In this document: positions 4,863 through 34,912 of the stretch, piece after piece | How the letters are laid out: each line of letters begins with the position of its first letter | How positions within the stretch are numbered: the first letter of the stretch is position 1 | IMG/VR virus record: IMGVR_UViG_3300006641_000083 | Location: 1-36,276 of that record | Strand: one strand, 5' to 3' | DNA from: a virus | DNA: 36,276 bases | Program-made: the position numbers and the translations under genes | The notes under the pieces: model-generated | Databases searched by the model: none | What the model saw: only the letters and a program-made list of their open reading frames with translations | Told to the model about the DNA's origin: nothing

Positions 4863-5059
4863 TGTACATGAAAGTAATAGCAACAACTTGTTTCCCATTC
4901 GTGGTGACAGAATTCATTGCTTATTTAATAGGCAGCTTTATCAATGTCTCGTTCAACCCAGAGATGTGGACATTGGACTTGCGGATACTTATGCCTTGGG
5001 CGGGTATGCTGTTTGGTATTGCGCTTTACATGAAACTTAACCACGAGAGACTCGTATGA
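4859..5059 (+). CDS. small membrane protein, two transmembrane helices
   Basis: A 66-residue protein from ATG 4859 (a second ATG follows at once). Hydrophobic segments span about residues 8-29 and 43-59, separated by a short SFNPEMWTLD loop, with a basic C-terminus (KLNHERLV). This hairpin topology resembles small holins and also other phage membrane proteins. It is in the early operon rather than the lysis cassette, so holin function is not favoured. The function is unknown. Confidence 0.55.
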   Translation: MMYMKVIATTCFPFVVTEFIAYLIGSFINVSFNPEMWTLDLRILMPWAGMLFGIALYMKLNHERLV

Positions 5060-5298
5060 CTATCAATGCATTCCACCCTGACTTCATCAAAACCTACATG
5101 CCAGAGTTCCTGACAAAGATTCGCATTGAATCAACTCAGTACTCCAATGGGGTAATCAACGGTGGCAAGTCAAAAGCATCACGTGAATCAAAGCAGGGCA
5201 AGACAGTGAATAGCATCAGTGTCTTCCCTAAAACAAAAGCACGTGTCTCAACCGATGTGACTAACTTTCACATCTACTCACGGGCAGGTGTCAAATGA
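5056..5298 (+). CDS. small basic hypothetical protein
   Basis: An 80-residue protein with a start at ATG 5056 overlapping the preceding stop by 4 bp. After an aromatic N-terminus (FHPDFIKTYMPEFLTKIRIE) it is Lys/Ser-rich (GGKSKASRESKQGKTVNS) and probably partly disordered. It may bind nucleic acid by charge, but no motif is recognised. Confidence 0.5.
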   Translation: MTINAFHPDFIKTYMPEFLTKIRIESTQYSNGVINGGKSKASRESKQGKTVNSISVFPKTKARVSTDVTNFHIYSRAGVK

Positions 5299-5408
5299 GT
5301 GATGAGTTGTTTAACATCATGGTGTTGTCAACAATCCTGATCTTTGGAGCAGGAATCTTCACATGCGTAGTGATCTTTATTGCCAGCTTACTGGCATTTA
5401 AAAACTAG
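5295..5408 (+). CDS. 37-residue single-span membrane protein
   Basis: ATG 5295 lies in an ATGA overlap with the previous gene. The protein has seven polar residues, one hydrophobic span (about 8-34, ending in FIASLLAF) and a two-residue tail. It is the last gene of the rightward operon and overlaps the 3' end of the oppositely oriented endolysin gene by 11 bp. No terminator is visible between the convergent operons. Its small size makes the call moderate. Confidence 0.5.
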   Translation: MSDELFNIMVLSTILIFGAGIFTCVVIFIASLLAFKN

Positions 5409-13880: not shown

Positions 13881-15493
13881 TAGAACGCATCCTCAGTGAC
13901 TGTTGATTGGAAGTTCATGGCTGTTACATTCCATGTGTCTGTAGCATCATTAGTACCAAACTTCATGGAAATAGAACGACTAGATTGTTGTTCAGTAGTC
14001 ATCCAAGGGTAATCAGTGTCAATGTCCATCACGCCTTGTTGACCATAGTCAGGCGTTTGACCAACAGAGTTAGAGCCTCCAATAGTGAGATTCAACTTGC
14101 CCGTTCCAGTAACTTCTGGCAATGTCCTGTGAACATAAACCAGTGAGCTGTACGGTACGCTAGAACCATCAGCCATTGTCAACAGCATGTTGTTACGTTC
14201 AAATTCAGCATCAATAGCTGCTCCAACAAATGAATTGCCTACGTTGGTTTGAATTAACTTAGCGTTTGCGACTTCACCTTTGGCATATACAACCGTGCGA
14301 GAAGCCAAGTTAAATTGACCACTGACAACCTTTGGACCTTCTGTTGCCATACAGGCATTCATGATGTCTTTTGGTGGGTTCCAAATGTCCAAGTCGTATC
14401 GATACGAAATCATCTTGTTACACCAACCGGTTGATGTCAGGTCTGGGTAATAGATCTCAATCTGATACTTTTGAGTGTTGTTTACCATGAACACACGGTC
14501 ATAGTACGTTGGATTCAGGTGATCAAAGAAATAATTCTTGATTCTCTGATTGCCAATTGAGTTGAAGTTAGACCCGTCAAACGCCCAAATGTCACGCGCA
14601 TCGATGCCAAACACCATTGCATCAGTGTTGGTCCAGCAGTTGTTGTTTAACAACCCACGCCCTTGGTTAAACAGACGCACACCAAAGATTGGCGCTGTCG
14701 TGCTTTGGTAGGCAATAGGTGAGAAAACAACAGTATCCCAATATGAGCAAACATAGAAGTTGGCCCCAAGGAAGAAACCGTCAATCAATGGACCACGAAC
14801 AGGAACCTCTTGCTCGTTAGCCACGTTAGACAAGGTTGGCTCCCATGTCGCAGGAATGCCAGTGTTGGCAAATGCCTGTGACCAACGAACCGTGGTTGGA
14901 TAGTTGTACTCAGTACCGCTAATAACTTTGGTAAGGTTGCCAGCAATTAGGATGTTGCCTACGTTTGGAGAACAGTAGTTACGGACAAAGGCAGCTTTTG
15001 TACTGGTTACGCCAATGTCGTAGTTCCAATCAGCATCAGGCGTAATGGTGATTTCGTTGCTTGTCGGCAAGAACTGCATGGGGTTGTTGATCGTGTCATT
15101 GATAAAAAACACGTTACCAACCCACGATGTCGTGATGTTCAGGTTTGCCGTATAGCCAGCCAAGTAGGCAGCTGGGTTAGCGCCAACGCCTGGGGTAATG
15201 TTTGACACCCCTGAAGTTGTTACCATGTACCACTTGCCATGACTGCTAGAGTCACGGGTGGCTACGATGTAAACCCAGTTTGTCTCACTGCGAAAGCCGC
15301 CTTCCATGAAGATGCCGCCAGCAGGAACAGCAGTCAAAATCTCTTCTTCGCCAAAGATCTTCTTGATGCCACGAACATCAGATTCGACGTTTTTACCGGA
15401 GTTATATTCCATTGGGCCAAGGACGTTGCTAGGAACGTCTGGCGTGAAGGACATCTTTGAAAAGGGGGAGCGCAGCCGCTGATAATCAGCCAT
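13880..15493 (-). CDS. tail hub/nozzle protein (gp10-like)
   Basis: 537 residues from ATG 15493, chosen over ATG 15499 because GAGG is 7 bases upstream of the former. The sequence is beta-rich with repeated aromatic and Asn motifs (FQSTV, NYPTTVRWSQAF, YYDRVFMVNN, YRYDLDIWNPP) and FGIDARDIWAFDGSNFNSIGNQRIKNYFF, similar to the stabilisation protein gp10 of P22-type tails and to beta-propeller tail-nozzle proteins of podoviruses. It would close the portal and adaptor channel and hold packaged DNA. The assignment rests on pattern and position. Confidence 0.6.
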   Translation of the reverse strand: MADYQRLRSPFSKMSFTPDVPSNVLGPMEYNSGKNVESDVRGIKKIFGEEEILTAVPAGGIFMEGGFRSETNWVYIVATRDSSSHGKWYMVTTSGVSNITPGVGANPAAYLAGYTANLNITTSWVGNVFFINDTINNPMQFLPTSNEITITPDADWNYDIGVTSTKAAFVRNYCSPNVGNILIAGNLTKVISGTEYNYPTTVRWSQAFANTGIPATWEPTLSNVANEQEVPVRGPLIDGFFLGANFYVCSYWDTVVFSPIAYQSTTAPIFGVRLFNQGRGLLNNNCWTNTDAMVFGIDARDIWAFDGSNFNSIGNQRIKNYFFDHLNPTYYDRVFMVNNTQKYQIEIYYPDLTSTGWCNKMISYRYDLDIWNPPKDIMNACMATEGPKVVSGQFNLASRTVVYAKGEVANAKLIQTNVGNSFVGAAIDAEFERNNMLLTMADGSSVPYSSLVYVHRTLPEVTGTGKLNLTIGGSNSVGQTPDYGQQGVMDIDTDYPWMTTEQQSSRSISMKFGTNDATDTWNVTAMNFQSTVTEDAF

Positions 15494-16553
15494 CTTCATC
15501 CTCTGTCATTTTGACCAGATTGGACATCAATCGTGCGTCTTTAGGATTAAATTCTAGTGCTTTTTCACAAAGCGTGATTGCCTCTTCTTTGCGTCCCAAA
15601 TGCCATGCAGCAATGCTTGCCAAGTCATACGGCTTCTCTGTCCACACGGACGGGTCCATTGTATAAACAAGGGCCTTGTCTTTGATTTCTAGAGACTTCT
15701 GAGCAGCAAAATAGCACTGGTTCCAATCATGCTTCATGTAGCTAAACATAGCCAAATCAACCCAAGGCTCACGTGTACCAGGCGCTTCAGCACAAGCAGC
15801 CATGTACCACTTTAAAGCTTCGCTATGGTTGTTCAAATGTTCATAGCTTTTGCCTAAAAGGCGCATGGCATAGCATCTTTCGTTTGCCCAAGTAGCTCCA
15901 TCCATTTCAAGATACTTACGCAAATACGTAACAGCCTCTTCCCACCGGCTATAAAACGTCAGTTCCCGCGCATGATAGAAGGCATTACGTGGACAAAAAG
16001 GATCTTCCTTTATAGCCAGCTCTAAGAGTGGCATGTATTGACCACGACTCTTGGTTGGATCAGGATGGTGGCTAACCAACAACATGTCAGTGTGGGCGTA
16101 TATCTCGTTTGTCCTGTGATCAGGGCGAGGATATTCGTGAACAGGGTGATGCCAATGGTAACCATGACGGTGGTGAATCTTCTCGTAAAAGAAAGAAATT
16201 CCACAGCCCCAATCAAACTTGTAGCGCAGACGGGTAGTGTTTTCTTGCCAGACCCGTTCAATTTCCTCGCGCCAGCCTGACTCAAGGATTTCGTCAAGGT
16301 CTAGGCTGATACAAACATCAAAGTCTCTAGGAATCAATGCAAGAGCAGTATCACGGGCTTTGTCAAAGCGCCAAGGGCTGATGCAAATGTCATGCACTAC
16401 AGCCCCGTACTTCTTTCCCCACTTAGCGGTTCTGTCTGTAGAACCTGTGTCAGCAATCAGAATGAGGTCAGCATCTTTTGCTGAGTTGCAGAATCGTTCT
16501 ACAAATTGTTCCTCATTCTTGCTGATTGCGTAAACTGCTATTTTCAATGCCAT
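15486..16553 (-). CDS. glycosyltransferase family 2 with TPR-like C-terminus
   Basis: 355 residues from ATG 16553, 14 bp after the upstream stop and with AGGAA well placed. An open frame to 16589 would run into the upstream gene. The GT-A core shows DTGSTDRT (35-42) and the DxD-type metal and nucleotide-sugar site DLDEIL (85-90). HRHGYHWHHPVHEY lies in the acceptor region. The C-terminal half has TPR-like helices (LGKSYEHLNNHSEALKWYM, LGRKEEAITLCEKALEFNPKDARL). It should transfer a sugar from an activated donor, but the acceptor is unknown. Its location between the tail hub and fibre genes suggests a virion or fibre substrate, or host-surface modification. Confidence 0.8.
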   Translation of the reverse strand: MALKIAVYAISKNEEQFVERFCNSAKDADLILIADTGSTDRTAKWGKKYGAVVHDICISPWRFDKARDTALALIPRDFDVCISLDLDEILESGWREEIERVWQENTTRLRYKFDWGCGISFFYEKIHHRHGYHWHHPVHEYPRPDHRTNEIYAHTDMLLVSHHPDPTKSRGQYMPLLELAIKEDPFCPRNAFYHARELTFYSRWEEAVTYLRKYLEMDGATWANERCYAMRLLGKSYEHLNNHSEALKWYMAACAEAPGTREPWVDLAMFSYMKHDWNQCYFAAQKSLEIKDKALVYTMDPSVWTEKPYDLASIAAWHLGRKEEAITLCEKALEFNPKDARLMSNLVKMTEDEDG

Positions 16554-16567
16554 GCTATGTTTTCCTA

Positions 16568-17026
16568 TTAAGGTGTCATTGGTTGCCAATCGGGGCTTTT
16601 AGGCCACTCAACTGGTAAACGTGCGTCAGTCACTGTAGCAGGGAAATCTCGCAATGCTTGGCGATATGTAGCCCATGCTTGTTTGTCAACGGTACAGTCA
16701 GGAATCTGTGTCCAATCGCATTGAGTCAGCAAGTTATTGCGAGTGCCACGCAATTGAGTCATTGCAGAATCTTTAGCTGCTTGAATTTCTTCTGCGGTCA
16801 GGCTTTGAACTTGAACAACGCTTACGAATTCACCATCGTCATAAGCAGCTGCTGGAACTAACTTTTGTGTCAGTGAATCGTAGTTTTTGAAACGATTGAC
16901 TTTTTTAGCTCCTTGTTCAGTCAACCATTCATCACTTGAACCGTTTACAGGAAATGATGTGTTTGGGAATAGCTCTTTGTAGTCGCCTACTGTAATAGTG
17001 CCGTTTTGTGTAATTGCAATTTCCAT
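16568..17026 (-). CDS. tail fibre assembly chaperone-like protein
   Basis: A 152-residue protein. The last 75 residues contain RNNLLTQCDWTQIPDC, WATYRQALRDFP and WPKSPDW, the recognised pattern of the phage tail assembly chaperone family (PF16778-type), often fused or adjacent to tail fibres. The N-terminus (ITQNGTITVGDYKELFPNTSFP) is characteristic of the same proteins. It probably helps fold or assemble the fibre proteins encoded next to it. Ten bases separate it from the LamG protein upstream. Confidence 0.75.
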   Translation of the reverse strand: MEIAITQNGTITVGDYKELFPNTSFPVNGSSDEWLTEQGAKKVNRFKNYDSLTQKLVPAAAYDDGEFVSVVQVQSLTAEEIQAAKDSAMTQLRGTRNNLLTQCDWTQIPDCTVDKQAWATYRQALRDFPATVTDARLPVEWPKSPDWQPMTP

Positions 17027-17035
17027 GATTTTTCC

Positions 17036-19060
17036 TTATGAACTTATTGGGCCAACATTTGAGAAAGCCGCTGCTGGAGGTGTAAATGCCGTTGTGTAAC
17101 GTGCATAACCTTTGGTGATGCGGAGGTCGTCTATGTAACCAACGTATTTATATGGACCTAAAGTGCCTCTAGAACCAATTACTGGTTGGCTTGTTGAAGT
17201 AATTGCGTAATTGTATGTATCGGTATACGTTGATCCTTCTTGAACACCATTAACAAACATTTTTGTGCTTGTTCCAGATCGACATACTGCAATATGACTC
17301 CATTGACTTGTAGGAGTTGCATTTGCATTACTCAATATTCTGTCTGCTCCGTTTGACGCAAAAACTAATTTGTTTGCTTCCAAATACCAATTAAATGGAA
17401 GTGCGGTATATGCAGGGTTGTAATATCCAATAATCCAATTGTCAGCAAGACTTGAAGGATTAATCCATGCTTCTATTGTAAAGTCGCCTGTACCAAATGC
17501 CCAAATTGCATTGTTTTGACCAATAAGGTAGCTGCTTCCATCAAAGTACATTGACCCTGTACCAAACTTTTTAACGCTAGTAGAAATCTGAGCATTACCC
17601 ACAGTTTCTAAGTCGTTCATCATTGCGTTGTCGTAGATGGCTCCGTTGGTCATGTTGCAAAGCAGCGATGTGTTTGAAACAGCAGTCAATGGCGCAGTTG
17701 GTGGAGTGAAGTTTGTCGTGTAAACCGCAGTTCCGTTTACAACTCGGAGATCAGAAACATATGCTGGTAAGAAATATTGCGTACCATCGTAGCTGCCAAT
17801 ATATGTAGCTCGAATAGGGGTAGCGGGATTACTTCCTGAGCTTGTTGGCGTGCCAGCCAATCCATTTACAAAAACAGTATAGTTAGTACCGTTCTTTACC
17901 AGCGCAAAATGATTCCACGTATTGTTCTTCATTCCATAAACACCAGCTCCACCTCCAATGCCATTTACAAAGTAGGCTGGGCTATTGTTTTGCGATGAAA
18001 CGTAGGCTTCAATGTCGCCGTTACGCAAATATATTTGAATCGGGTATCCATTTGAATAGATGCACTGGTATGAACCGGAAGTCGAAGAGCCGCTATAGAC
18101 CCAGCCCTCGATTGTCCAATCACCAGATGTTAGGTTTAATGCAGAACCGCTACCAACATTCAAATAATCCCCAGACCCATCAAAATACCCGCTACCACCA
18201 ATAGTGGCTGTACTGTATGCAGTAGATGTTCCAAATGGGTTGAAGCGTTGTACGCTTGGATTTCCGTCCACTGTCACAGCGAAAGCATTGCTACTGCTAT
18301 CTTTAAACCTATTTGCTTGGCAAGTAAGTAATGAAGTCCCGCTGATTGCTGTTAATGGTGTAGTGCTTGGCGTGAACGCAGCAGTGTAAACAGCAGTACC
18401 TTTAACAACCCTTGCATTTGAAATATAACCCAAAAATGTCTGGCTATATCCGTCAAAGTTACCGATACCAAGTCTTGAAGTAGTTGTTTTTAAGGCTTTT
18501 GAATTTGTGAATGTGTTACTTTGCGTGCCATTAATAAACACTCTAAACGTAGTTCCAGACCTTGTGACGGCAATGTGGTTCCAAGTGTTATACGAAACCG
18601 TAGTAACAGACGTTACATCGTCGCTTGAGTTATCAGAGTAAGTTACAAAGAATCGAATTGTTCTGGCATCGTTCAATAAAAGGCCAAAAGTATCTTGAAA
18701 ACTCGCAGCATACTTGGTGATAATGCCACCATATCCTGCGCCAATATTTCCAGTGGGGCAAATCCATGCCTCAAGCGTAAAGTCACCACTACCAAAATCA
18801 AAGGCAGTGTTATTTGCAACCATTAAATCATCACCAGAACCATCAAAATAATTTGACCAATTAGACCCGTAAGGACTAAATGAGCCTTGTGTCGTATTGC
18901 CAGCGCGTGTAATGGTGAAGTTGTTGGTTGAGCTGTCCAAAAATGTATTGTTCTGAGCGCCGTTAGTACCATCTCCATGCAACAGCATAGTGACGTAATT
19001 AAACTGAGCGTCTGGAGGTGTTGACGCAGCAGCGCCTGATTTGATTGCAGCACTAAACAT
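17036..19060 (-). CDS. tail adhesin with three LamG/lectin-like domains
   Basis: A 674-residue protein. After a short N-terminus (AAASTPPDAQFNYVTMLLHG), three concanavalin-A/LamG-like domains of about 200 residues follow, each marked by YFDGSG-D or YFDGSSYL, GDFTLEAWI / GDWTIEGWV / GDFTIEAWI, WNHIAVTRSGT / WNHFALVKNGT / WSHIAVCRSGT and a conserved end with Y(I/V)SDLRV-like and YTTAFTPP segments. LamG domains bind glycans, so host-surface recognition is inferred. Internal triplication is clear. It is one of several adjacent fibre-type proteins. Confidence 0.8.
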   Translation of the reverse strand: MFSAAIKSGAAASTPPDAQFNYVTMLLHGDGTNGAQNNTFLDSSTNNFTITRAGNTTQGSFSPYGSNWSNYFDGSGDDLMVANNTAFDFGSGDFTLEAWICPTGNIGAGYGGIITKYAASFQDTFGLLLNDARTIRFFVTYSDNSSDDVTSVTTVSYNTWNHIAVTRSGTTFRVFINGTQSNTFTNSKALKTTTSRLGIGNFDGYSQTFLGYISNARVVKGTAVYTAAFTPSTTPLTAISGTSLLTCQANRFKDSSSNAFAVTVDGNPSVQRFNPFGTSTAYSTATIGGSGYFDGSGDYLNVGSGSALNLTSGDWTIEGWVYSGSSTSGSYQCIYSNGYPIQIYLRNGDIEAYVSSQNNSPAYFVNGIGGGAGVYGMKNNTWNHFALVKNGTNYTVFVNGLAGTPTSSGSNPATPIRATYIGSYDGTQYFLPAYVSDLRVVNGTAVYTTNFTPPTAPLTAVSNTSLLCNMTNGAIYDNAMMNDLETVGNAQISTSVKKFGTGSMYFDGSSYLIGQNNAIWAFGTGDFTIEAWINPSSLADNWIIGYYNPAYTALPFNWYLEANKLVFASNGADRILSNANATPTSQWSHIAVCRSGTSTKMFVNGVQEGSTYTDTYNYAITSTSQPVIGSRGTLGPYKYVGYIDDLRITKGYARYTTAFTPPAAAFSNVGPISS

Positions 19061-19069
19061 TGTTAGTCC

Positions 19070-19465
19070 TTACTGTGTGTAGTTTTGACCAACAGTCACG
19101 CCATACCAGCTTGTTCCATCGCTGAAGAACGAATAAATATCTTGTTTACTTGCGGTACTTGTCACTGTTGGAGCAGTGCCACCAGCCCAGTTAACTGTTG
19201 ACCAAGTAACAGTACGTGATCCGGTTGCATCTTGACGCAAATAAATGATAAATGATTTACCAGCGGCTGCTGTAGGCATTGTGATTGTTGCGTTACCTGT
19301 CAACGTCAAAACTTGCACAGTACCGTTAGCCAATGAAACTGTAATTGCCGTGCTTGTGTTAGCCGTGTACGCAGTTTCTGTGTAGTTGGTAACTGTTGGA
19401 TTTGTTAAGCCACCATTGGAATCAGCAACTTCTGCTAATTTAGATAGGTTGCGGGGAATTGTCAT
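19070..19465 (-). CDS. small Thr-rich fibre-associated protein
   Basis: 131 residues from ATG 19465, which shares ATGA with the upstream stop and has GGAAGGAA upstream. A longer frame to 19480 is open but less likely. It is very rich in Thr, Ser and Val with alternating strands (TAITVSLANGTVQVLTLTGNATITMPTAAAGKSFIIYLRQD) and W residues near the end, a beta-sandwich pattern seen in phage fibre tips. The function is likely structural. Confidence 0.65.
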   Translation of the reverse strand: MTIPRNLSKLAEVADSNGGLTNPTVTNYTETAYTANTSTAITVSLANGTVQVLTLTGNATITMPTAAAGKSFIIYLRQDATGSRTVTWSTVNWAGGTAPTVTSTASKQDIYSFFSDGTSWYGVTVGQNYTQ

Positions 19466-19818
19466 ACTATTTCCTTCCAAGATGTTGTTTCTTCATCCCA
19501 TGCATACATTTTGCCATCAGTAGGCATAGGAGTGGGTGCGTCCCATAAGCAAGTCTGCTCGTTCAATACCCATGAAGCAAATGGCTTTGGTGGGATAAAC
19601 GCATCACGTTGAGCATCGTATGTGTAGCCTACGCCAGCATAGTTCTTACGGATGTTTCCGTTGTAGCTGGTTTGAACCCATGTGCCACCAAAATGGCTAC
19701 GGCAGAACTCAGCACCAACTGATTCTGTTTCTACGCCATCAAGCAAGCAGTCATTGTTATGCACCACGATCACACGCAGTACTGTGTTGTTTAATCCGAT
19801 TTCAGCAAAGTGTGCCAT
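19462..19818 (-). CDS. conserved phage protein, GGTW/YAGIGY type
   Basis: A 118-residue protein of a family often seen in marine and freshwater phages next to tail genes. Hallmarks are MAHFAEIGLNN, V-I-V-V-H-N-N-D, FGGTWVQTSYNG, RKNYAGVGYTY, DAFIPPKPFASWVL and WDAPTPMPTDGKMYAWDEETTSW. It is small, soluble and aromatic-rich. The role is probably as a minor tail or fibre protein, but no biochemical function is known to me. Confidence 0.7.
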   Translation of the reverse strand: MAHFAEIGLNNTVLRVIVVHNNDCLLDGVETESVGAEFCRSHFGGTWVQTSYNGNIRKNYAGVGYTYDAQRDAFIPPKPFASWVLNEQTCLWDAPTPMPTDGKMYAWDEETTSWKEIV

Positions 19819-19827
19819 GTTATTTCC

Positions 19828-20697
19828 TTAGAACGTGATGGAGCCAGAGGCTGTGAATTTGTAGATGTTATATGAGCCATCAGTGGTTATTGTTGGAGAG
19901 CCTGTTGTTGATGCTGCTGTTGAAAGTGTTCTAATAATTACAACGCCTGAACCGCCAGAGGCTCCACTATTGCTATTTGAACCACCACCACCGCCGCCGC
20001 CTGTATTAGCAGTACCAGCAGTACCAGCAGCATTTTTGCCACCATTACCACCGCCTCCAGCTCCACCTGTTCCAGCAGAACCAGAAGAAGAACTGTAAGC
20101 ACCACCGCCACCGCCGCCAGCATAAGTCACAGATGCCCCTGTAATTGATGATGCAGTACCTGCGCCACCGTTGCCAGCCGTAGCGTTTGCAGTGGCGTTA
20201 CTACCAACTGCACTTGCTCCTCCACCCCCGCCGCCATTCCATGTTGCGCCATTACCACCAGTGTTACCTTGAGATGGAGATGTAGATGGAGTGTTTCCAG
20301 CTCCACCAGTTGTAGCATATGTTCCACCACCACCAGAACCGCCTGAACCAGCAGTTCCAAGATATGTAGAACCGCCACCGCCGCCAGTAGAAGTAATTGA
20401 ACCAAATACAGAATTACTACCATTTGCACCGTTGCTAGGCCAAACATTACCCGTACCGCCAGCGCCAACGGTAACTGTAATAGCAGAACCAGAAGAAACA
20501 CTTAATCCGGTAGCAGTTCTAAAACCGCCAGCTCCTCCAGCTCCTCCACCACCTGATTGACCTTCAGAGCCGCCACCGCCACCAGCAACAACCAAATATT
20601 CAACAGAAACTGGTGGAATATAAGGAGAGGGCCAATTACTAGCGCCTTTAGCTTGTCCCTGTTGTGTCAGTGTAAAAATTCCTGAGTATTGAGCCAT
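19828..20697 (-). CDS. glycine-rich tail tip adhesin (paralog 1)
   Basis: A 289-residue protein of the Gly-rich phage tip type. The N-terminus is followed by VEYLVVAGGGGG, FRTATGLSVSSGSAITVTVGAGG and many poly-Gly segments, then VVIIRTLSTAAST and a terminal YNIYKFTASGSITF. Poly-Gly helices of such proteins stack into sheets at fibre ends and carry host range. The neighbouring gene 20707-21594 encodes the same architecture, so this is a recent duplication or cassette. The start ATG 20697 follows the upstream stop by nine bases. Confidence 0.8.
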   Translation of the reverse strand: MAQYSGIFTLTQQGQAKGASNWPSPYIPPVSVEYLVVAGGGGGSEGQSGGGGAGGAGGFRTATGLSVSSGSAITVTVGAGGTGNVWPSNGANGSNSVFGSITSTGGGGGSTYLGTAGSGGSGGGGTYATTGGAGNTPSTSPSQGNTGGNGATWNGGGGGGASAVGSNATANATAGNGGAGTASSITGASVTYAGGGGGGAYSSSSGSAGTGGAGGGGNGGKNAAGTAGTANTGGGGGGGSNSNSGASGGSGVVIIRTLSTAASTTGSPTITTDGSYNIYKFTASGSITF

Positions 20698-20706
20698 TTT
20701 TTATCC

Positions 20707-21594
20707 TCAGAATGTGATTGAACCTGAAGCAGTCCATGTGTAAATACGATATCCACCAGTAATGGTGTATGTTGGAGAGCCTGTTGTAGATGCAGCTTCT
20801 GCGTAGGAGTCGGCGTAACGAATAATAACAATGCCAGAGCCGCCAGTGCCGCCGCCTTTATGATTTGCTCCGCTTGTGCCTGATGAGCCAGCTCCACCGC
20901 CACCGCCGCCAGTATTAGCTGTTCCATTTGATCCAGCTGAATTAGATCCACCTTGACCACCACCGCCAGAACCGCCATTGCCACCAATAGCGCTAGAGTC
21001 GCCACCACCACCACCGCCACCACCTGCGTAAGTTACAGAACTTCCGCTAATAGATGAAGCCGTGCCAGAGCCACCAGAACCTCCAGTGCTAGAGTTGTAG
21101 TTTCCCCCAGCAGAACCAGAGCCGCCACCACCACCAGCAGGATATGGGCTACTACTGCTGCCGTTTCCACCTGCGTTACCTTGTCCAGATGTTCCAGCAC
21201 CACCGTTTCCAATGGATGGGTAAGTACCGCCGCCTCCAGAGCCGCCAACTTGGCCTCCTATGTTATTAGGCGAGCCAGTATAGTTGCCGCCCTTGCCGCC
21301 TCCAACAGAAGTTATGGTGCTAAATACGGAATCGGAGCCATTTGAATATGCGTTAGTTGTAGTCGCTGCCTGACCAGCACCACCCGCACCTACAGTTACA
21401 GTAATTGCAGAACCGGAAGTCACAGCAAAGCCTGTTGCCGTTCTAAAACCGCCAGCGCCACCACCGCCGCCTTCCCATCCACCACCTCCACCACCACCTG
21501 CTACAACAAGATACTCAACTGTTGAAGCAGAAGGAAGAGCTGATAAGGGATTAAAAGTCTCAGTAATAAACCCACCAAGGTATCTATTAGACAT
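20707..21594 (-). CDS. glycine-rich tail tip adhesin (paralog 2)
   Basis: A 295-residue protein with the same order as its neighbour: VEYLVVAGGGGG, FRTATGFAVTSGSAITVTVGAGG, long Gly-rich blocks, GGSGIVIIRYA and a terminal YRIYTWTASGSITF. The N-terminal segment (NRYLGGFITETFNPLS) differs from paralog 1, so the attachment sites may differ. The two Gly-rich regions have diverged in length and sequence while the framing motifs are conserved, the pattern of a receptor-binding module under diversification. Confidence 0.8.
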   Translation of the reverse strand: MSNRYLGGFITETFNPLSALPSASTVEYLVVAGGGGGGGWEGGGGGAGGFRTATGFAVTSGSAITVTVGAGGAGQAATTTNAYSNGSDSVFSTITSVGGGKGGNYTGSPNNIGGQVGGSGGGGTYPSIGNGGAGTSGQGNAGGNGSSSSPYPAGGGGGSGSAGGNYNSSTGGSGGSGTASSISGSSVTYAGGGGGGGGDSSAIGGNGGSGGGGQGGSNSAGSNGTANTGGGGGGAGSSGTSGANHKGGGTGGSGIVIIRYADSYAEAASTTGSPTYTITGGYRIYTWTASGSITF

Positions 21595-21606
21595 AATAAT
21601 TCCTTA

Positions 21607-21978
21607 TTAGGTAATTGCTTCGTATGCCGCAGTCAGTTCAATTGCGTTTGATGTACCAGAAGTCACCACAATTGATTGACCTTCGCCGACATAGATTGAT
21701 GTGCTTTTATCCAAAATAATCAATGAACCATTACCAGGAACAGTAATTTGATAAGCAATACGGTAAGCAGTGCCGCCACCGCCTGTTGCGCTATTGATCG
21801 ACACAGTAATTGATGCCGCAGAACTTGTTACGTTAGCAGCAACAATGTTGTCAATCTTGTTAACAGTGCCAGAAGCAGGAGTCAAAGCAGTCCAAGTGGT
21901 TGCACTTGTACCTGTAGGGATTAGATACGATGTGTTTCCATAAATGGATGTGACGTTTACGATGTTTGGATTAGCCAT
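21607..21978 (-). CDS. small beta-rich fibre-associated protein
   Basis: A 123-residue protein with alternating hydrophobic and Thr/Ser strands (NPNIVNVTSIYGNTSYLIPTG, ITVSINSATGGGGTAYRIAYQITV, SIVVTSG). A jelly-roll or beta-sandwich fold is likely, of a type often found in late phage operons beside fibres. It is soluble and without catalytic motif. One base separates it from the collagen-like gene upstream. The function is unknown, probably structural. Confidence 0.65.
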   Translation of the reverse strand: MANPNIVNVTSIYGNTSYLIPTGTSATTWTALTPASGTVNKIDNIVAANVTSSAASITVSINSATGGGGTAYRIAYQITVPGNGSLIILDKSTSIYVGEGQSIVVTSGTSNAIELTAAYEAIT

Positions 21979-21979
21979 T

Positions 21980-23998
<2,019 letters not shown>

Positions 23999-24006
23999 CC
24001 CTTACC

Positions 24007-24990
24007 TCACTTAAAGTTGTAGCGATAGCCACGTGGCTGAAATTCGCTAGTCAAGTGGCGATCACCACCAGACCATTTATCTTTGACCATTTGGTCTTCA
24101 ATCAGACCATAAGCATCATCAAGGCGTGACAGCCATTTCTGAGATTCTTCGGTGTTTTTGTTCTTGTCGTAGTACGCCCACAAGGTTGCATAGAAGTAAC
24201 CTTCAGGGAAGCTTGCCAACACAGCGTTGCTTTGAACCAATGGATATAAAGGATCTTCCGTTGGGCTAAACAAGAATGGGAATGTGCGGATGTAATACGC
24301 ATTGATGATCACGCCACCACCTGGGTTTGGCGTAAACACATAGTTAGGACCAACTTCAGAGAAGCTGGCGCGGATCACACGAGGTACGCCGAAAGGACGA
24401 ACGTACAACTGATCAATCATTCGCAAACGAATAATCTCTCTGTCACCAACACGGTCATAAACAATCCAAGGACCCATACTGGCAGCAGGTGTGTCAGGCT
24501 GGACTTCGTTGTTTGGAGTTTGTTGGAAGAAGAAAATAGGCCAGTTCATATCCGCAGGGATAGGAGCCATACCTTGATCGTCAGTAATCAATACACATGG
24601 GTCAACAGTGTCATAGGGATTGGTACGCAAAGCTGGAAGCTCCAGCTTACGCATTTTCAATTCACCCATCTGGATTGACTGTGTAATCTCAATAGTTGAC
24701 TGTGTAGGCAACATCAACAATGTGCCAGGCAAGTCATCATTGGAAATCATGCCATCAGGATCATTAACAGTAACGGTTCCTGATGTAAGTGCTGTGACAA
24801 CGCAAAACCCTTTGAGTGGGCTAATACCAACAAAGTCACCAACCATCAAAATACTTGTTGGATCACTAGAAACAGTGATTACGCCATCGGTAATATCAGT
24901 TGCAGAGATGCCAGTGCTTTTTGGAATTGCTCCAACCCACTTTGCTACTCGACTCACTAGAGCATTTGCAGATTGAATAAAGTCTGACAT
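24007..24990 (-). CDS. head-tail adaptor/tail tubular-like protein
   Basis: A 327-residue protein with a helical N-terminus (FIQSANALVSRVAKWVGAIPKS), a beta-rich middle (VVTALTSGTVTVNDPDG, LRTNPYDTVDPCVLITDD) and a helical C-terminal region YFYATLWAYYDKNKNTEESQKWLSRLDDAYGLIEDQMV. The C-terminal helices resemble those of podoviral adaptor proteins (P22 gp4 / T7 gp11-type), which sit under the portal. Position between capsid and fibre genes agrees. The exact member of the family is not certain. Confidence 0.6.
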   Translation of the reverse strand: MSDFIQSANALVSRVAKWVGAIPKSTGISATDITDGVITVSSDPTSILMVGDFVGISPLKGFCVVTALTSGTVTVNDPDGMISNDDLPGTLLMLPTQSTIEITQSIQMGELKMRKLELPALRTNPYDTVDPCVLITDDQGMAPIPADMNWPIFFFQQTPNNEVQPDTPAASMGPWIVYDRVGDREIIRLRMIDQLYVRPFGVPRVIRASFSEVGPNYVFTPNPGGGVIINAYYIRTFPFLFSPTEDPLYPLVQSNAVLASFPEGYFYATLWAYYDKNKNTEESQKWLSRLDDAYGLIEDQMVKDKWSGGDRHLTSEFQPRGYRYNFK

Positions 24991-25040
24991 CTCAATTCCT
25001 CATTTTGTCGGGATAGTTGATTGTATGGTAAAGACGTTTT

Positions 25041-33475: not shown

Positions 33476-33961
33476 TCATACCTTTCTTAAAGATTCCATG
33501 AAATCGTCCAAAGCGTCTTCAGCGGAGACGTTCTCTTCGCTGTTAACCATGTTGTTCACGTGTTCAATCGAAATGACAGGAGCCCGTGAAGATTCGTATG
33601 AGGCAATCTTTTCAGCAATCCTAGCACGATCCTTAATATCCAGCTCATTAGACTGCAGAGCTTCGATCAAGGTTTCCATAGCCGTCACCAGGGGAGGTAG
33701 GCCAGCGTCGATCCTTTGTTGGTTCAGCTGATTAAACAAAGCTCCATATTCGGTGACTCTGTTGACAATGGATTTTGGTCGACCAAGAGCATTGCGGTTT
33801 TCTGCTTTGGTAAAAGCGCTTTCACGGGGAGGCTTTTCGCCGGTGGCAATTTTCATGGCTTTTTTCTTTGCGCGACGAGCAGCGGCAGCTTTACGAGCTT
33901 TTTCCTTATGCTCTTCGGAGTTGTGCTTTACTTGCGGTTCTCTAATTGGTTCGTCAAACAT
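33476..33961 (-). CDS. putative terminase small subunit
   Basis: 161 residues from ATG 33961 with GAAGAGG nearby. An open frame to 33988 is also possible. The basic N-terminus (KEKARKAAAARRAKKKAMKI) is followed by GRPKSIVNRVTEYGALF, a helical segment and LDIKDRARIAEKIASYESSRAP. This is the GRPKG-then-helix arrangement of the small terminase type found in podoviruses. Small terminases recognise viral DNA and regulate TerL. Position upstream of terL in the late block supports it. Two intervening genes and a weak sequence match keep the call moderate. Confidence 0.5.
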   Translation of the reverse strand: MFDEPIREPQVKHNSEEHKEKARKAAAARRAKKKAMKIATGEKPPRESAFTKAENRNALGRPKSIVNRVTEYGALFNQLNQQRIDAGLPPLVTAMETLIEALQSNELDIKDRARIAEKIASYESSRAPVISIEHVNNMVNSEENVSAEDALDDFMESLRKV

Positions 33962-34506
33962 TTCATAGCCTCTTCTGTGCGAATCCACGCATATGACCCA
34001 TTAACGGTGAACCCACGCTTCTTGTGGATCTTCATGAACCCGTCATGGTCAGCACGGATGGATGTCGAGCAAATAATGGGAATGCCGTTTTTATATGCCC
34101 ACAGTATATGCTGATCAATCATTTGGTTGACAAGTTTGAGACGGGTGCGCAAGGGCAAGCTTAAGTCGACGCTGTGGAACTTAGAGTTACTGATCTCATC
34201 ATTGCAGTAGCTTGTATAGCCGCCTCGATCAAACCAGCAAAAGCCAAGAAGTTGTCGCACAGTATCATGGCCTACCAATCTATTGTTTTCATCATAAAAA
34301 GGGACGACCTCACCATCGGCACGGCAAACAGCAATAAACTCTTTACCTTTGTTGAATAGTTGTTCAGTACAAGCAACTGTCAACCTATGTCTAAAGATGC
34401 CTTTGTCTCTCTTTAGGATACCTTCAACGTCTGACCCATAGACGGTGTCTCCCAATTCAACCATGTCTTCAATGTCATGAAGAGGGTGAGCTAATGACCA
34501 TTCCAT
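33928..34506 (-). CDS. GNAT-like acetyltransferase, first late gene
   Basis: A 192-residue protein, ATG 34506, with GGAAAGG upstream. The N-terminal part has EWSLAHPLHDIEDMVELGD and a beta-strand core (FIAVCRADGEVVPFYDENNRLVG, LLGFCWFDRGGYTSYCND). The C-terminal half (LVNQMIDQHILWAYKNGIPI, ADHDGFMKIHKKRGFTVNGS) fits the GNAT fold, which transfers acetyl from acetyl-CoA. The usual Q/R-x-x-G-x-G/A pyrophosphate loop is not obvious, so binding may differ. As the first gene behind the structured leader it should be expressed early in the late phase. Its substrate is unknown. It overlaps the putative small terminase by 34 bp. Confidence 0.6.
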   Translation of the reverse strand: MEWSLAHPLHDIEDMVELGDTVYGSDVEGILKRDKGIFRHRLTVACTEQLFNKGKEFIAVCRADGEVVPFYDENNRLVGHDTVRQLLGFCWFDRGGYTSYCNDEISNSKFHSVDLSLPLRTRLKLVNQMIDQHILWAYKNGIPIICSTSIRADHDGFMKIHKKRGFTVNGSYAWIRTEEAMKCLTNQLENRK

Positions 34507-34876
34507 ACTTTGCCTTTCCAGTGCGGAGCAGAAGAAATTTTTTTGTTGGTTGCCTAGGAGCCACCTAAGACCTCTTGTGAGGGGCTTACCTCACCTCATC
34601 CCTTGCCAGACAAAGGACCACCTCAACCAACACGGCTGAAGACTGCTGATGTCTCACCTTAGTAAGTGTCCCGCATGAACTTAATCACTTGGGCTGGGCA
34701 GTCCACACAATCCTCATGCGTGTTAGTTGTTGGTGCATCGGACTCTTATCCCCGATAGTCCTCTAAGCTGTGTGCTTAGCGTTCTAGATTCGTAACTTCA
34801 CCAACACGGCTGAGGACTGAATGTCACCTTGAGAGGCGCGCTTTCCTCTGACACCTAACCCAATCCTCATGCGTGT
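34507..34876 (-). ncRNA. structured late leader with two repeated stem modules
   Basis: This is the untranslated 5' part of the late transcript. Module 2 pairs ACACGCAUGAGGAUUG (34876-34861) with CAGUCCUCAGCCGUGU (34819-34804); module 1 pairs the identical 16-mer (34723-34708) with CAGUCUUCAGCCGUGU (34645-34630). Each stem has 14 of 16 pairs with the same 2x2 mismatch. The only base that differs between the stem copies makes a G-C pair in one and G-U in the other, a change tolerated only in minus-strand RNA. Between modules, CUAAGC-ACACA-GCUUAG and GGACU...AGUCC hairpins lie within 34790-34740. No known riboswitch family is recognised. Confidence 0.6.
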
Positions 34877-34882
34877 ACTCAA

Positions 34883-34912
34883 ATTATAGGACCACACATT
34901 CCTTTTCAGCAA
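34883..34912 (-). promoter_or_regulatory. putative late promoter
   Basis: On the minus strand TATAAT (34888-34883) matches the -10 consensus perfectly. TTGCTG (34912-34907), 18 bp upstream, is a weak -35 (TTG conserved). A start 7 bases after the -10 is A34876, the first base of the leader repeat. It would drive the 29-kb late block. A weak -35 suggests an activator or modified polymerase. Confidence 0.55.

Follow-up and report, generated by a model that had tools for sequence, protein, structure and literature searches.

The DNA analyzed here, hereafter the window, is a viral stretch of 36,276 nucleotides (IMG/VR record IMGVR_UViG_3300006641_000083, positions 1 to 36,276). The phage has SU10-type portal and capsid genes, and a predicted protein with collagen-like repeats is encoded at 21980-23998. 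Near the far end, an array of structured RNA elements lies on the minus strand directly ahead of a gene for a 192-aa protein (Table 1). This protein had no match in Pfam or PHROG, and its relatives were found in 13 viral contigs. A previous sequence-only reading of this DNA had pointed to two copies of a stem built from a repeated 16-mer and a repeated 19-mer, and both repeats were found again where they had been placed: one repeat (19/20-mer) occupies 34626-34645 and 34800-34819 and the other 34705-34723 and 34858-34876, each with 95% identity between copies. The proposed extent was too small, since each copy consists of the stem domain (P1) plus a second closed domain (P2; 34729-34805 and 34545-34631), and the window element is thus 34545-34876. 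In the RNA, the order is P1, P2, P1, P2. The upstream P1 has the layout ACACG-CA-UGAGGAUUG / CAGUCCUCA-GC-CGUGU around its insert, and its foot overlaps P2 by two bases (34804-34805), so that the outermost pairs of the two domains compete.

Table 1. Coordinates of the RNA array and adjoining features in the window
Feature	Position	Strand	Description	Basis
TATAAT -10 box	34883-34888	-	predicted +1 at ~34876	sequence
P1, upstream module	34804-34876	-	41-nt swappable insert	repeats, fold, family arms and covariation
P2, upstream module	34729-34805	-	GUUGGUG...CACCAAC closing helix, inner hairpins	fold (z -3.5)
P1, downstream module	34630-34723	-	62-nt insert	repeats, fold
P2, downstream module	34545-34631	-	GUUGGUUG...CAACCAAC, three hairpins	fold (z -2.1)
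First gene after the array	33928-34506	-	192 aa; kept in relatives whether or not they have the module	

The assignment of the element to the minus strand was borne out by folding. Minus-strand RNA of 34540-34880 folded better than 100 of 100 shuffled sequences (z -3.4), compared with a z of -0.6 for the plus strand, and the two P1 stems folded alone gave z values of -3.2 and -1.9. The difference between a G-C pair in one stem copy and a G-U pair in the other is real. Among 193 distinct arm pairs, of which almost all belong to other phages, 91% keep the U-G pair seen in both copies, which indicates that both pairing tolerances are true features of a minus-strand RNA. As for the start site, the TATAAT box does place a predicted +1 where the upstream module begins (~34876), as had been suggested; the -35 region is weak, and a scan for sigma-70 promoters gave no match at this box.

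Among the relatives examined of the gene for the 192-aa protein, many are preceded by these arms, which enclose different contents. The 3' arm alone matched at least 120 stretches of viral contigs. After a pairing filter, the collection comprised at least 296 modules in at least 224 viral loci, both window modules counted, and by sequence comparison the assignment of the window array as a two-module member of a widespread phage RNA family is well supported. Each module consists of a P1 domain, which has constant arms, a 2x2 internal loop (CA/G(C or U)), the U-G pair and a swappable insert, and a P2 domain, which is closed by a GUUGG...CCAAC helix and is sometimes tRNA-like.

Pairing in these related phages is conserved in the minus-strand sense named by the sequence-only reading, and shows base-pair covariation. 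In a search that left the helix bases open (with G barred from the central position in the 5' arm and the 3' arm free), three positions of the P1 helix were paired in 78, 75 and 78 of 81 distinct modules, with AT, GC, CG, TA and GU types all represented. The 193 distinct arm pairs were collected without a pairing filter and therefore include some wrong matches; among them, the triplet helix was fully paired in 137, compared with a mean of 56 and a maximum of 69 after shuffling, the 2x2 loop was conserved in ~95%, and in the inner helix G-U combinations outnumbered A-C (58 versus 31). The outer helix of P2 also covaries: its pairs 3-6 were paired in 97, 97, 96 and 92% of cases versus 88, 69, 67 and 52% in shuffled controls. 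P1 inserts folded mildly better than shuffled sequences (mean z -0.71), suggesting that some of them may be unstructured pairing segments.

The P1 module had no match in Rfam at either gathering or relaxed thresholds, in agreement with the suggestion that the element may be undescribed. Rfam scans of ~80 loci other than L036 returned only tRNA, plus isrK and C4 elsewhere in one locus (L241); outside P1, locus L036 has an abiF RNA, and some P2 domains match tRNA. We found no description of P1-P2 modules in the open literature, and the family is apparently undescribed. A search for its bacterial home, using an exact 18-mer over 84,980 species, gave five matches, four of which occurred by chance inside other sequence; the single genuine module was on a 3.4-kb contig of a Burkholderiales metagenome-assembled genome.

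The contents of the modules are extensively exchanged. At a similarity cut of 80%, on which the cluster numbers depend, the 296 modules listed contained at least 131 insert clusters and at least 110 clusters of downstream P2 starts, and 42 of the 58 multi-member insert clusters were joined to more than one P2 type. The contents of the window array were themselves found in other combinations. For example, a near-identical copy of the upstream insert is present in L052, and the upstream P2 cassette recurs in L040 behind a different P1 insert. The downstream insert is near-identical in L073, L110 and L115, the last two of which have other P2 cassettes after it, and a cassette similar to the downstream P2 is present in L087. 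Comparison of the window with L001 revealed agreement in the promoter, P1 arms and flanks and differences in all inserts; the promoter stretches match up to TATAATTTG, beyond which the arrays diverge.

Three further loci share a promoter ending in GTATAATAAAC. In L003, one module of ~150 nt separates this promoter from the gene; in L006, the same gene lies directly behind the promoter and the module is absent; and in L002, a small protein gene takes the place of the module. The element is therefore optional. At the site of the window array, two relatives (L004:2500-2688 and L008:115-305) have another structured segment instead, GTTGGTGAAAGCTGTCAAAGG...AGCCAACACC, with tRNA-Asn behind it.

When a common P2 cassette was used as a query, matches were also detected in enterobacterial phages. 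Here, a sister frame, CACAACAGGUAAGAGCAUUG...CAGUGCUCUUUCCGUUGUG, often precedes the same P2 cassette (GUGAAUGCGCAGGCUGAUGCGC...GCCGGAGAUCAGCACCGGCCAC), which is placed within CACCACAAC rather than CACCAAC. Phage lambda itself contains this frame at 44787-44868 (L246:985-1063): a sister P1 with AUUG...CAGU and the U-G pair directly follows tR' and is in turn followed by a different P2. The lambda module lies between tR' and the lysis genes, where only orf-64 is annotated nearby in the record examined. Relatives of the query module occurred in at least 149 phage records and in at least 310 of 5,426 E. coli genomes (E <= 1e-5), one example lying in the interval between Q and the holin gene. The sister frame was present in at least 115 viral stretches, with 32 insert clusters over all loci examined. 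Among other cultured phages, the module follows a CI-type repressor gene in mEp460, precedes the lysis genes in PY54, adjoins tRNA genes in nithesis and an N4-like phage, and is antisense in a moron of Bas80, beside tRNA-Met.

The P2 cassette is common to the window-type and lambda-type frames, which differ in the lower P1 helix, and it occurs inside many outer frames. Its two hairpin loops, GCUGAU and AUCAGC, are complementary; in a search that demanded CAG in the second loop, the variable loop-loop pair was G-C, G-U or A-U in 22 of 22 cases, only three of which change both sides. The lambda-type frame offered 18 distinct arms, too few to tell whether they covary. Because these arms barely vary, the link between the two frames rests on the shared P2 cassette, the layout and the position rather than on covariation.

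tRNA genes are frequent neighbors of the modules. They were ~24-fold denser within 700 nt of modules (21 in 0.43 Mb, 0.0486/kb) than elsewhere in the same loci (3 in 1.49 Mb, 0.0020/kb), and in L014 a tRNA-Asn abuts P1 without a gap. The P2 domains of L055, L105, L163 and L167 pass the Rfam tRNA threshold, each with an insertion; those of the window fall below it. Another known RNA was found in L036, where an abiF RNA (RF03085; 55.2 bits, gathering threshold 37) with a T-run occupies positions 1269-1305, right after a P1-P2 module. abiF RNA neutralizes the AbiF toxin in trans through direct binding (PMC12373285). Judged by the list of open reading frames, no AbiF gene is evident in the 4-kb locus, and the sequence points to a possible phage-borne antitoxin mimic. 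The abiF motif was absent from all other arrays, including that of the window.

The gene for the terminase large subunit is located downstream of the modules, on the same strand and within 3 kb, in ~105 of the 224 listed loci, making the head of the structural operon the favored module site. Terminase small subunit genes and an upstream HNH gene also occur in many of the listed loci. Among 174 first modules, 25 have a TATAAT-like -10 box at a distance of 9-19 nt, compared with none of 71 internal modules. The end of an HNH endonuclease gene lies ~24 nt ahead of the array in 22 loci, and in these the array seems to be inside an operon and not at a transcript start. A dedicated partner protein was also sought; the neighbors were mostly terminase, portal and HNH genes, with no single RNA-binding protein among them.

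Judging from these sequence comparisons, we favor, with moderate confidence, the view that the modules are exchangeable, trans-acting RNAs at the head of strong transcripts that would bind host factors in an anti-host or counter-defense role. This reading is preferred because of the combination of constant arms with exchanged contents, the optional presence of the element, the company and mimicry of tRNAs, and one orphan RNA antitoxin. The expression, processing, trans action and targets that we infer for the array RNA are as follows. The array would be abundantly transcribed at the head of either the late transcript or one of its own, and might then be processed. Its RNAs would work in trans by binding host factors, most likely defense or RNA-processing proteins, either as decoys or as mimics of RNA antitoxins. 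The conserved arms may provide a shared chassis that gives stability, allows processing or binds one common host factor, and the insert and P2 domain would set the specificity and be shuffled under an arms race. On the other side, the abiF case is a single locus (L036), and the terminase-side bias would also suit a role in cis. The modules resemble abiF RNA and type III RNA antitoxins, small structured RNAs that neutralize a defense toxin by direct binding (PMC12373285), in that one such RNA forms the final piece of the L036 array; they differ in matching neither abiF nor any other Rfam family and in having no toxin gene.

A broader and more tentative proposal is that tailed phages, including lambda, share an RNA cassette system in which constant frames carry swapped domains as a personal set of inhibitors against host defenses; such a set might, again tentatively, include tRNA mimics, antitoxin mimics and others. 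If so, the cassettes would be an RNA counterpart of anti-defense gene islands, expressed from the start of strong transcripts, and phage genomes would hold a large natural library of RNA inhibitors of bacterial immunity that is invisible to gene-centered searches. In any case, this family of structured RNAs counts hundreds of members, lies outside Rfam and is present even in phage lambda, and the question of counter-defense can be tested at once in lambda and in BASEL phages.

Alternatively, the modules could be base-pairing small RNAs that act in trans, with the arms as a scaffold (e.g., for Hfq or ProQ) and the inserts as seeds against host mRNAs or sRNAs, as in other prophage sRNAs. Hypervariable inserts on a constant scaffold and the terminators closely behind some modules (L055, L099, L107) are consistent with this possibility; Hfq-dependent phage sRNAs, including LPR2, have been reported from lambda, and the Pas and STnc100 sRNAs are located near Q in E. 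coli prophages. However, the inserts are partly structured and recur as conserved domains across phages, protein partners are suggested by the orphan abiF RNA and by the P2 domains that resemble tRNA, and the Rfam families of phage sRNAs do not match the module. AgvB, AsxR, Esr41, Pas and STnc100 are likewise variable RNA genes of lambdoid prophages, some of them near the antitermination gene Q, but they are described as single sRNAs, whereas the modules form arrays in which cassettes are swapped within a constant frame. We regard base-pairing sRNAs as unlikely.

Also unlikely, in our estimate, is that the array is a cis-acting leader of the late transcript that serves the structural operon, whether by antitermination, by shielding the 5' end from decay or by a timed processing step. 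The sequence-only reading had offered a version of this idea, in which the leader acts like the HK022 put RNAs or as a riboregulator for the late block. The HK022 put RNA is described as acting by itself, in cis, to suppress pausing and termination (PMC9378689), and like the window array it has paired stems close to the start of a phage transcript. In contrast to this cis-acting element, that of the window is hypervariable, shuffled, dispensable and present also at non-late positions. Neither sequence nor loops are fixed, as only the arms are constant and the inserts are swapped; most of the module is hypervariable and exchanged, which is at odds with a fixed signal for binding RNA polymerase. 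It is unlikely that the late block requires a put-like action of the module because, in the comparison of genomes, close relatives (L006 and L002) lack the module behind the same promoter. The strong terminator that had been placed in the late block did not stand out: 22 terminator-like sites were counted in 5000-24999, the part scanned, versus 19.0 +/- 4.5 in shuffled sequence, which is no excess. Some role in cis is conceivable because many modules sit where the structural operon is predicted to begin or at its head, as is also reflected in the distribution of -10 boxes between first and internal modules, and the lambda module directly follows tR' within the PR' transcript. Against such a role, the number and content of arrays vary, and modules are also found in immunity regions, in moron regions and in antisense orientation to structural genes.

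Because the modules adjoin terminase genes, we also considered a packaging or DNA-level element, such as a pRNA-like RNA, a cos/pac region or a site for recombination of cassettes, which would accord with the terminase and HNH neighbors and the shuffling of cassettes between frames. This is very unlikely: close relatives lack the module at the same site, the excess of G-U over A-C and the conserved U-G pair would not be favored by a DNA hairpin, and the lambda copy is distant from cos. Finally, the tRNA neighbors and tRNA-like P2 domains might suggest functionless remnants of tRNA genes and spacers, from decayed or inserted tRNA clusters, but this is highly improbable, as no sequences in the region are more constant than the P1 arms, whose helix covaries, and the arms are therefore under selection.

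Phage tRNA genes and tRNA-like elements share several features with the modules: certain P2 domains reach tRNA scores, modules adjoin tRNA genes, and in one P2 class the complementary GCUGAU/AUCAGC loops are placed like D and T loops. The differences are that the anticodon arm of these P2 domains is replaced or disrupted, that P1 is attached, and that most P2 types are not recognizable as tRNA. GOLLD, ROOL and OLE RNAs are associated with tRNAs as well. Like the modules, they are non-coding and structured, and some are carried by phages (PMC12286853); they differ in being very large single RNAs, and the Rfam scans carried out here gave no match to them.

Additional recurrent segments were observed within the arrays. 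P1 inserts of ~103 nt (L014, L024, L038, L040, L048, L075, L087 and L096) seemingly have a common skeleton, UCGGUCA...UUAAUCCCGA, and this insert sub-family looks like an independent conserved RNA domain. A long P2-type cassette, GUUAACGGCCAGAACGAYAGACCG...CGGAGAGACGG, is present in both L001 (2590-2800) and L010 (230-345), and its position relative to P1 differs between the two.
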